Source: Solirubrobacteraceae bacterium
Lineage (GTDB): Bacteria; Actinomycetota; Thermoleophilia; Solirubrobacterales; Solirubrobacteraceae
Assembly: GCA_029263125.1 (NCBI GenBank)
Contig: JAJCYD010000002.1
Coordinates: forward strand, 1-32,195
DNA: 32,195 bases
Reading direction: 5' to 3'
Part shown: in pieces, positions 22,289 to 29,635 of the stretch
Layout of the letters: the number at the start of each line of letters is the position of its first letter
Numbering within the stretch: the stretch's first letter is position 1
Position numbers and translations under genes: made by a program
Notes under the pieces: generated by a model
The model's input: only the letters and a program-made list of their open reading frames with translations
Databases searched by the model: none
Told to the model about the DNA's origin: nothing

Positions 22289-22942
22289 TCAGGGCGTGGG
22301 CAGCAGGGCCTCTGGCTCCGGCGGCTGCGGCTGCGGCTGCCGCGCGACCTCACGCCGCTTGGTCTCCATCGCATCGGTCGTCCGCCGGACGACGATGATC
22401 GCCAGGAACGCTCCCGCGATAAGAATGCAACCGCTGGTCGCGTGGACGATCGTCGACGACCGCGCTAGCTCGAGCGTGTTGGCGTCGGAGAAGCGCCTTG
22501 CAGCGACGTTGGCGACGAACGAGCCGACGAGGAAGAGGATCCACCACCAAGACGCCCACCAATGCCGCTTGCGCTCGCCGAGGGCACAGGCAAGCATGTC
22601 GTTATGGATCTGCTTGGGGCGAAAGAGCCCCATGATCGGAATAATCCAGCTGGTGATCGACCACCACGTCTCATGTCGGCGTACCCCGGGACACAGGGCG
22701 TCGAGGTTGCGATGTGCAGCGTTGAACCAGCGGACGAAGACGATCGCCGCAACGACCAGCGCGAGGTACTGGGCGCCTGCAGACAGGAGCGTGACCGTGT
22801 CAAACCGGTCGAGCGCGTCTGAGTCGGTGACGTCATCGAGCCACTGCAGCGCGACGACGTCGACGACGACGGCGACCAGATGAACGACTTGGACGACCGC
22901 CAGCGCCACGATCGCGATGCGCGCTCGTCCGACGATCTCCAC
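22289..22942 (-). CDS. DUF4328-family integral membrane protein
   Basis: A 217-residue protein with four to five hydrophobic helices and the features of DUF4328: FVRWFNAAHRNLDAL after the second helix, ITSWIIPIMGLFRPKQIHNDM, and a tryptophan-rich WWASWWWILFLVGSF. It ends in a proline/glutamine tail (ARQPQPQPPEPEALLP). The family has no established function. The start is GTG 22942 (MEIVGR); an overlapping ATG at 22944 is in another frame. TACGGT at 22967-22972 could be its -10, giving a leader of about 18 nt. It is head-to-head with the gene at 23029. Confidence 0.8.
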   Translation of the reverse strand: MEIVGRARIAIVALAVVQVVHLVAVVVDVVALQWLDDVTDSDALDRFDTVTLLSAGAQYLALVVAAIVFVRWFNAAHRNLDALCPGVRRHETWWSITSWIIPIMGLFRPKQIHNDMLACALGERKRHWWASWWWILFLVGSFVANVAARRFSDANTLELARSSTIVHATSGCILIAGAFLAIIVVRRTTDAMETKRREVARQPQPQPPEPEALLPTP

Positions 22943-23015
22943 ATAGCGGCCAGTCGGGATCCGGGCACCGTATTCGCGGCGCCATGCGCCTGCCAGATAC
23001 CCATCGGCAACCCGC

Positions 23016-27471: not shown

Positions 27472-28788
27472 TCAACGCGGCGTCACCGGGACGCCGGCGT
27501 CGTGGGTGGCGGGTGCCTTGACCGCCGCGACGCCCCCGAGCTCGGCGGTATCGCGGCCGAACAGCAGGCCGATGTTCCAGTCGACGAGCAGCCGCGCGCG
27601 GCGGCCGGCGCCGGGCATCATCGCCAGGTGATAGGAGCGGGCGAGGATCCAGGCGGGCGTCCCGCTCCAGCGGATCGGACCGGTCATCGCGACGGCCTCG
27701 CGGCGTCCCATGTCGACGAAGACGCCCTTGGTCTTGTAGCGAAACGGCTGCTTTGAGCCGCCGGCGCCGAGTGCCGCCGCGACGTTGCGCGCGACCACGC
27801 GACCCTGGCGGATGGCGTGCTGGGCGGTCGGCGGGCAGGGCTCGCCCGTGCGAGCGGGATCGGGGACCGCGGCGCAGTCGCCGATCGCCCAGACGTTCTC
27901 GTTGCCCTGCACCTGCATGCAGGCATCGGTGACGATCCGTCCGCGATCGGTGAGCGGGAGGCCGAGCTCGGCGACGACCGGCTGGGGCTTGACGCCCGCC
28001 GTCCAGACCAGCGTTCGCGTCGGGACCTGCTCGCCATCGGACAGGAAGGCGTGGTGCTCGGTGACGCTCTGAAGCGTCGTGTTCGTGCGGATCTCGATGC
28101 CGCGCCCGCGCAACTCACGCTCGGCGAAGTCGCCGAGCTTGCGCGGGATCTCGTGCATGACCCGCTCGCCGGCCTCGACGAGGATCCAGCGGATTCCCGT
28201 GACGCGGCAGCGCGGGTAGAAGTCGAGGATGTCGGCGACGAAGTCCTGCAGCTCGGCAAGGCCCTCCAGGCCCGCATAGCCGGCACCGATGAAGACGTAG
28301 GTCAGATACTCGCGCCGTGCCGCGCCGTCCTCCAGCGTCTCGGCATGCTCCAGCGTGCGCAGCACGTGGTTGCGCAGCTCGATCGCCTCGGGCAACGAGT
28401 TGAAGCCTCGCGCGTGCTCGGCCAGGCCGGGCACGGGCAGGCGGCGGCTGACGGACCCGACGGTCACGATCAGCTGGTCGTAGAGGAGATCCTCGACCTC
28501 GCCCTCGAGGTTCTCGACGTGCAACGTGTTGCGTTCTGGCGCGGCGCCCGTGATGCGCCCGAGCCGCAGGTGCACCGCTTCGGGCAGTTGCTCACGCAGC
28601 GGCACGACGACGTGGCGCGGCTCCAGCGTGCCGGCGGCCGCGCCGGGCAGCAGCGGCGTGTAGAGCATGAAGTTCACGTCGTTGACGAGGCGGATGCGGG
28701 CGCTGTGGGGCGGCAGCAGCCGCCCCAGCGTGCGGGCGGCGTAGAAGCCCCCGAATCCCCCACCAGCGATGACGACGTTCCAGGCGAT
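27472..28788 (-). CDS. ndh: Type II NADH dehydrogenase-like flavoprotein, apparent ATC start
   Basis: A flavoprotein of the NDH-2 family (about 438 residues), which would oxidise NADH and reduce membrane quinone without pumping protons. The N-terminal FAD motif NVVIAGGGFGGFYAART lies just after 28788. The NADH motif YVFIGAGYAGLEGLAEL (GAGYAG at 168-173), VWAIGDCA and AQHAIRQG (close to the quinone-site AQxAxQ) follow. In frame, the codons between the TAG at 28800-28798 and the FAD motif include no ATG, GTG, TTG or CTG. The first canonical start (GTG 28677) would delete the FAD site. ATC at 28788 lies exactly 6 nt after TAGCCT, the leaderless spacing of this genome. A sequence error at that codon is the main alternative. 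Confidence 0.8.
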   Translation of the reverse strand: MAWNVVIAGGGFGGFYAARTLGRLLPPHSARIRLVNDVNFMLYTPLLPGAAAGTLEPRHVVVPLREQLPEAVHLRLGRITGAAPERNTLHVENLEGEVEDLLYDQLIVTVGSVSRRLPVPGLAEHARGFNSLPEAIELRNHVLRTLEHAETLEDGAARREYLTYVFIGAGYAGLEGLAELQDFVADILDFYPRCRVTGIRWILVEAGERVMHEIPRKLGDFAERELRGRGIEIRTNTTLQSVTEHHAFLSDGEQVPTRTLVWTAGVKPQPVVAELGLPLTDRGRIVTDACMQVQGNENVWAIGDCAAVPDPARTGEPCPPTAQHAIRQGRVVARNVAAALGAGGSKQPFRYKTKGVFVDMGRREAVAMTGPIRWSGTPAWILARSYHLAMMPGAGRRARLLVDWNIGLLFGRDTAELGGVAAVKAPATHDAGVPVTPR

Positions 28789-28794
28789 GCAGCG

Positions 28795-28800
28795 AGGCTA
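28795..28800 (-). promoter_or_regulatory. Candidate -10 element for ndh
   Basis: TAGCCT, then 6 nt (CGCTGC), then the ATC at 28788. The spacing equals that of four clear leaderless candidates in the window. A perfect TTGACA occurs upstream (28834-28829) but is 28 nt away, too far to be its -35. Confidence 0.38.
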
Positions 28801-28816: not shown

Positions 28817-29635
28817 CTACGCCACGAGTGTCAAAGCGATCCACTCGTTGCCGTGGCGGCGATCGCGCTCACGCAGACCGTGGGGTGCGAACGCGGCCGC
28901 GACCTCGTCGGCCTCGTGTGCCAGCAGGCCGCTGAGCACGAGCGTGCGCGGCGACTCGCCGGCGAACCCCGCCGCGGCGATGTGCAGCAGCAGCGGGCGC
29001 ATGAGGTTCGCCACGGTGGTCGGCGCGCACGGCACCGGACCGCCCGCAAGCAGGTCCAGCTCGGCGGTCGTGACGGCGACGCCGTTGGCGGCGGCGTTGT
29101 CGCGCGTCGCCGCGACCGACTCGACCTCGTGGTCATAGCCGACCACCGGCTCCCAGCCCAGCTTGCACGCGGCGATCGCCAACACGCCCGACCCACAGCC
29201 GACGTCGACGAGCGGGCCCTGCGGATCGAGCTCAAGCAGCGCTTGCAGGCACAGCCGGGTCGTGGCGTGCGCGCCCGTGCCGAAGGCCTGCGCCGGGTCG
29301 ATCGCGACGTCGAGCACTCCGGCGGCCCGGTCGGGCCGATCGTGCCACGGTGCCCGCACGTGCAGTCGCCCGCCGATCGTGACCGGCTCGTGGAAGCTGC
29401 GCCAGCGCGACGCCCAGTCGTCGGCGATCTCGCTCGTCGCGATGTCGACGAGCGCGTCGCCGGCGGCCGCGCGCAGTGCCGGCAGCGGCGGAAGCTCACT
29501 CTGTGCACCGTAGAGCGCGTACTCGACGCGGTCTCCGAGGTCGACCTCCTCGACACCCGCTGGGACGAGCTCCAGCAGCTCGGCCAGCACGAGCTCGGCG
29601 TCTGCGGTCGCGACGCGCAGCGCCAGGCGGATCAC
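28817..29635 (-). CDS. prmA: Ribosomal protein L11 methyltransferase
   Basis: A 272-residue SAM-dependent methyltransferase that would methylate ribosomal protein L11. The N-terminal substrate domain (about 1-90) is followed by the diagnostic DPAQAFGTGAHATTRLCL (113-130), SAM motif I VDVGCGSGVLAIAA (143-156), a VANLMRPLLLH motif in place of the usual NILA, and LSGLL. The start GTG 29635 has only a weak ribosome-binding site, 22 nt after the dnaJ stop. The dnaJ-prmA neighbourhood is conserved in many bacteria. Confidence 0.93.
   Translation of the reverse strand: MIRLALRVATADAELVLAELLELVPAGVEEVDLGDRVEYALYGAQSELPPLPALRAAAGDALVDIATSEIADDWASRWRSFHEPVTIGGRLHVRAPWHDRPDRAAGVLDVAIDPAQAFGTGAHATTRLCLQALLELDPQGPLVDVGCGSGVLAIAACKLGWEPVVGYDHEVESVAATRDNAAANGVAVTTAELDLLAGGPVPCAPTTVANLMRPLLLHIAAAGFAGESPRTLVLSGLLAHEADEVAAAFAPHGLRERDRRHGNEWIALTLVA

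Follow-up and report, generated by a model that had tools for sequence, protein, structure and literature searches.

How translation of a gene begins when no conventional start codon precedes its conserved N-terminus is the question raised by a flavoprotein gene in a stretch of 32,195 nucleotides (nt) of Solirubrobacteraceae bacterium DNA (assembly GCA_029263125.1, contig JAJCYD010000002.1), the whole of which is called the window below. The conserved part of its frame is preceded by an ATC codon, and ATC codons were found at the equivalent position in orthologues and in a second gene, purH. The answer favored here, with fair confidence, is that the leaderless mRNAs of a few particular genes in the order, the flavoenzyme and purH among them, use AUC as their start codon. 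The elements in question are listed below, with their basis in parentheses.

27472..28788, minus strand: flavoprotein gene, 438 codons from ATC to stop (open frame, Pfam PF07992, orthologues)
28786..28788, minus strand: ATC, putative start codon holding the predicted first mRNA base (orthologue start column; no ATG, GTG, TTG or CTG from the in-frame stop to the GGGFGG motif)
28795..28800, minus strand: TAGCCT, putative -10 element of the promoter, separated from the ATC by 6 nt (TAnnnT conserved in orthologues)
28798..28800, minus strand: TAG, in-frame stop three codons before the ATC, overlapping the -10 element (sequence)

Throughout the text, G000 designates the genome of the window and g1 its genus; other codes in G, L and g designate the genomes, loci and genera compared.

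The ATC codon in the window

The minus-strand frame has the sequence TAG CCT CGC TGC ATC GCC TGG AAC GTC GTC ATC GCT GGT GGG GGA TTC GGG GGC. As claimed in the original prediction, which had been made from the letters of the window, no ATG, GTG, TTG or CTG is present in frame from the TAG at 28800-28798 to the GGGFGG motif. In the open reading frame list the gene begins at the GTG at 28677 (401 amino acids), which lies 37 codons downstream of the ATC and behind the motif, so that a protein initiated there would indeed lose it. The predicted spacing was also found to be exact: TAGCCT (28800-28795) is followed by the spacer CGCTGC (28794-28789) and by the ATC (28788-28786), at 6 nt. This arrangement had been likened to that of leaderless ATG genes nearby, and TAnnnT does precede, at 6-7 nt, six ATG frames of the window whose base pattern is coding-like (five of them of at least 120 codons). 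No Shine-Dalgarno-like sequence precedes the window ATC. The forecast of an mRNA beginning with AUC is supported by the spacing, from which the 5' end would be expected at this codon.

The designation of the product as an NADH dehydrogenase stood in part. The protein matches Pfam Pyr_redox_2 (PF07992) with 162 bits against a cut-off of 26.1 and carries the N-terminal GGGFGG nucleotide-binding motif; among the 22 NCBIfam models found at E<=0.001, none reaches its own cut-off, the best being TIGR03169 with 124 against 310 bits. The enzyme is probably type II NADH dehydrogenase-like. Differences from the five orthologues of the genus are located mostly at third codon positions (for instance 66, 56 and 146 by position in the comparison with G014).

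Putative start codons of the orthologues and of purH

Flavoprotein orthologues were detected at E<=1e-60 in 80 of the 146 genomes of the family, and a scan of named genomes returned 38 loci, for the most part from records with Solirubrobacteraceae or Solirubrobacterales in the title. After merging of repeats and exclusion of L066 and L135, which have no N-terminal match, 90 distinct N-terminal regions were read. A register of 89 rows was then obtained by excluding L133 and L134, shifting eight rows to the nearest ATG or GTG within four codons and adding L167. Near relatives start with M/V-A-W-[N/H/D and others]-V/I-V/I/L-I-A-G-G-G exactly at the ATC-GCC-TGG-AAC of the window, and upstream of this column the orthologue sequences show no conservation as protein. 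The codon at the start column is ATG in 67 rows, GTG in 15 and ATC in 7. ATG is found in all five other members of the genus that possess the flavoprotein gene (G013-G017); the sixth, G012, has no flavoprotein match in an assembly that is 77% complete. TAnnnT precedes the start by 4-11 nt in 77 of the 89 rows, as compared with an average of 4.3 and at most 11 rows over 200 shuffles for the same range; it lies at 6 or 7 nt in 67 rows, and at this distance in all seven ATC rows. The proposal that the window ATC is the start is supported by this alignment of orthologous N-termini, the codon sitting on the orthologue start column at the same distance from the conserved TAnnnT.

Some other rows display particular upstream regions. 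L046, L048 and L051 are without TAnnnT; in its place they carry a Shine-Dalgarno-like sequence, GGGAG or GAGGAG, as though leadered starts had arisen from leaderless ones. An inverted repeat, TTGTAAC-N5-GTTACAA, is located directly upstream of the promoter in L062 and L064 and may, as a guess, be the operator of a redox repressor.

The seven ATC genomes are G000, five members of genus g16 (G057, G073, G075, G077 and G082) and G353, which belongs to another family. The g16 genomes read ATC-AGC/AGT-CAG-CAC at the start column, ATC being present in 5 of the 12 clear orthologues of that genus. G353 reads ATC-GCC-TGG-GAC, and its nearest in-frame ATG, GTG or TTG is 92 codons upstream. A TAG stands three codons before the ATC in G082, and only a CTG occurs between the stop and the ATC in G057. 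In a quick tree of 60 proteins, from which L168, L172 and L180 were excluded as cut short, the five g16 ATC rows form one clade with a Shimodaira-Hasegawa-like approximate likelihood ratio (SH-aLRT) support of 97, and the ATC label needs three changes, forced by the starred branches. When the nine codons of the form HTH were searched at this start in 232 genomes of the order, seven matches were obtained, all of them ATC; the reversed-pattern control gave 0, and the same pattern with xTG matched in 131 of the 232 genomes. A search for ATC before the motif in 399 genomes of the class returned eight matches, namely the same seven and G305.

G305, which represents a further family of the class, was excluded from the ATC starts, a GGAGG-preceded ATG being located 29 nt upstream. 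In this related flavoprotein (G305:C270:532-572, L160), the ATG and the conserved N-terminus are in different frames, as though one base had been inserted or deleted. Four flavoprotein matches, in G110:C122, G097:C27, G137:C4 and G138:C892, each contain a single in-frame stop (TAG or TGA).

The second gene, purH (domains AICARFT/IMPCHase and MGS), was found as one of six ATC sites in a spacing scan of G000 described below. TAnnnT-N6/7-ATC is present at purH in all 7 genomes of g1. Seventy purH loci were fetched from the family, of which seven without the anchor motif were excluded (L280, L282, L283, L284, L317, L319 and L325). The codon at the leaderless position of the 63 readable loci is ATC in 20, ATG in 14 and GTG in 5; another codon with an ATG one or two codons further on is found in 11, and 13 are without such a TAnnnT. 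The ATC loci are distributed over six genera (g1 7, g10 6, g17 4, and one each in g4, g14 and g22):

G000:C19:14272 (L205:14272), L260-L266, L270, L276, L278, L293, L308, L310
L315, L318, L320, L321, L323, L326

The same site in g22 holds ATG in G130 and ATC in G131. Between the upstream stop and the conserved core of purH, no ATG, GTG or TTG occurs in G015 (132 codons), G014 (45), G013 (29) and G046 (21); in G016 and G017 the nearest such codon is located upstream of the ATC, at 33 and 31 codons respectively. In a tree calculated for 29 PurH proteins, with L280, L282, L283 and L284 excluded, the ATC label requires two changes, and the tree is compatible with one origin. For purH outside the order, 33 genomes yielded 30 loci, of which 14 were excluded, and no leaderless ATC was seen in the 16 readable ones. 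A non-AUG codon is conserved at the start in five g16 genomes forming one clade for the flavoprotein, and in 7 of 7 g1 genomes for purH.

The purH matches of genus g20 are broken. Six of its genomes (G121, G123, G124, G125, G126 and G128) match at best from about residue 195 of the query, and G123:C1:2241747-2243357 contains purH as two neighboring pieces; the gene may be split in this genus.

Counter-evidence, mechanism and competing explanations

A number of observations weigh against AUC initiation and must be considered together. The first group comes from the frequency of ATC starts in G000 and G014. The spacing scan of 714,900 bases of G000 found six ATC sites in coding-like frames, about 3.5 being expected (6/1241 against a background of 0.28%); the corresponding figure in G014, 1/1130, falls below its background of 0.24%. 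Applied to 1.35 Mb of sequence from G000 and G014, a strict scan retained 29 ATG, 27 GTG and one ATC, the latter being the window gene, and 0-5 sites for each of the 15 other non-ATG/GTG codons, so that by this measure ATC is not above chance genome-wide. It is therefore either confined to few genes, or the two genes found are special. In the orthologue loci chosen for the flavoprotein and purH, the same strict scan gave 16 ATC sites, of which 12 are these two genes and the other four are probably due to chance. Gene pairs of G000 and G014 were also compared, about one fifth of one genome being set against one contig of the other. Among 121 pairs, 65 have an ATG, GTG or TTG in common, aligned without gaps and no more than 15 codons from where the alignment begins. 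In 102 pairs, such a codon occurs within 20 codons in G014, and in six of these G000 has none from -25 to +20. A stop is directly adjacent in the window gene only; the other five frames remain open for 14 to 342 codons upstream, and their alignments therefore start inside a longer frame. A tighter test on 80 pairs found another codon in exact register in 26, mostly with a G000 start apparently shifted by some codons, and ATC in the window gene only. General use of ATC starts was rejected on the basis of the gene-pair comparison, codon enrichment and strict scan.

One further ATC was noted within the window. At 22960, 6 nt after TACGGT, it heads a coding-like open frame of 223 codons (22289-22960, minus strand); a GTG is present at 22942, no partner was found among the G014 pairs and the site is probably a chance occurrence.

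The remaining objections concern individual genes and published reporters. In three of the five g16 genomes (G073, G075 and G077), conventional codons are available farther upstream in frame; the stretch so included is not conserved among the three. The purH locus of G000, taken alone, is ambiguous because an ATG sits inside its -10 element, TATGCT. A GTG, frequently the purH start outside the order, is located three codons before the core in 12 of the 20 ATC purH loci. The TxPGxV stretch upstream of this GTG is common to ATG-started orthologues, which argues for, without settling, a start upstream of the GTG in these 12 loci. As regards reporters, PMC4633059 states that a 5'-terminal ATG or GTG is required in M. 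smegmatis, where ATC was the negative control, and in the E. coli work of PMC4965119 5'-terminal starts were knocked out by changing AUG to AUC. Either the ribosomes of the order differ from those used in these assays, or low activity is sufficient, or the transcripts differ from the expectation based on DNA.

Should AUC initiation be correct, it can be outlined as follows. Transcription would proceed from the promoter with the -10 element TAGCCT and, judging by the spacing, the 5' end of the mRNA would be the A of the ATC at 28788. Ribosomes would then initiate on this 5'-terminal AUC. The initiator tRNA was searched in the seven ATC-flavoprotein genomes, G014 and G079, and its anticodon arm carries CAU in 11 of the 11 matches from these 9 genomes. 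Only a CAU initiator arm was found, and the simplest mechanism is therefore formylmethionyl-tRNA (fMet-tRNA) acting on AUC with a third-base mismatch; the likeliest initiator would thus be the ordinary tRNA, with two bases paired. In a purified system, initiation factor 3 (IF3) favors strong third-base pairs, the AUC/CAU pair being omitted from at least one series according to PMC10158994. PMC9031893 reports that 70S ribosomes are the main form binding leaderless mRNAs, some of which are repressed when IF3 is raised. In this way the check could be evaded by a leaderless AUC: by analogy, the undissociated 70S ribosome would bind the 5' end directly, and the codon check by IF3 would be looser. 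Few genes of the order would make such use of AUC, including at least this flavoenzyme and purH. Relatives would differ in having ATC, ATG or GTG at one and the same site, and some lineages would have retained ATC for long periods, low expression being a likely consequence.

A more elaborate proposal, regarded as tentative and on balance doubtful, is that AUC has evolved as a translational control element, by which the translation of a few leaderless mRNAs, including those of the type II NADH dehydrogenase-like enzyme and of purH, would depend on how much initiator tRNA, IF3 or undissociated ribosome is available. Respiration and purine synthesis might then be tied to the state of the translation machinery, by analogy with the AUU of infC.

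The other explanations must account for the same data. AUC could be used on a leadered mRNA, a longer transcript from the upstream gene, with ribosomes that have completed this gene restarting at the codon. The upstream gene (28817..29635, minus strand, from the open reading frame lists) has the orientation of the flavoprotein gene, stops 28 nt short of the ATC and, from a reading of its translation, presumably resembles PrmA, the ribosomal protein L11 methyltransferase. In favor of restarting, PMC4633059 describes a mycobacterial selection in which leadered mRNAs with ATC behind a Shine-Dalgarno sequence retained low activity, at 0.2% of reads. Restarting is nevertheless judged unlikely in view of the constant position of TAnnnT in the 67 orthologues and all seven ATC rows, of the same spacing at purH and of the lack of a Shine-Dalgarno-like sequence before the ATC. 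Less probable again is a miscalled ATG, as the original prediction had suggested. Such an error is conceivable in the window genome alone, which is a draft of 53 contigs whose five gene-holding relatives have ATG. As a general explanation it fails: ATC occupies the same column in six other assemblies from two other lineages, purH has it in 20 assemblies, and a miscall therefore leaves those cases unexplained.

The remaining possibilities receive very little weight. A gene that is decaying after loss of its start, or that yields only a truncated protein from the GTG at 28677, would fit the lack of a conventional start upstream of the GGGFGG motif. The disabled gene, also envisaged in the prediction, is hard to reconcile with a 438-codon open frame, with differences biased towards third positions and with an ATC kept throughout the g16 clade, and truncation would sacrifice the motif. 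It is held to be highly improbable, to the same degree as a special initiator tRNA reading AUC in these genomes. The latter would agree with the occurrence of AUC alone, not AUU or AUA, which is also explained by the high G+C content (1241 ATC, 100 ATT and 54 ATA in the G000 5' regions sampled). The single pattern employed for the tRNA search could also match an NAU initiator arm, and returned none but CAU. An upstream start or a frameshift leading to one was rejected, the TAG closing the frame three codons before the ATC and the orthologues showing no protein conservation upstream. Initiation on a leaderless AUC thus remains the preferred reading.

Comparison with known systems

According to PMC9094748, AUC, AUU and AUA are rare as bacterial start codons. 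Among the literature matches listed, a scope outside which subscription papers and preprints fall, mitochondrial ATC starts and general work on leaderless mRNAs and start codons were present, but no account of bacterial genes with a natural leaderless AUC. Near-cognate starts and leaderless mRNAs are each known, and it is their conserved combination that seems new. In the sources as far as seen, the AUG/GUG rule for leaderless mRNAs rests on E. coli and mycobacterial reporters; if conserved natural genes do start at a 5'-terminal AUC, this rule is not general, and such genes would provide natural material on the choice of the first codon by ribosomes without a leader. In practical terms, gene finders limited to ATG, GTG and TTG would trim 37 codons and the nucleotide-binding motif from the window gene.

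Actinobacterial leaderless genes are described in PMC3160421 and PMC4633059 as having TAnnnT about 12 bp before the start and no Shine-Dalgarno sequence. The window gene resembles them, within that description, in its TAnnnT spacing, its lack of a Shine-Dalgarno sequence and a start located at the predicted 5' end. It differs from them in that its start would be AUC instead of AUG or GUG, which departs from the mycobacterial ATG/GTG rule as given in PMC4633059. ATC starts are also described for animal mitochondrial genes, but with the mitochondrial code and initiation apparatus, whereas the present case concerns a bacterium with a CAU initiator tRNA. The infC gene of E. coli has an AUU start codon, placed behind a Shine-Dalgarno leader. 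The window gene would share with infC a start codon deviating from AUG in its third base and retained by evolution in one particular gene; unlike infC, it would be expressed from an mRNA that the promoter spacing suggests to be leaderless.
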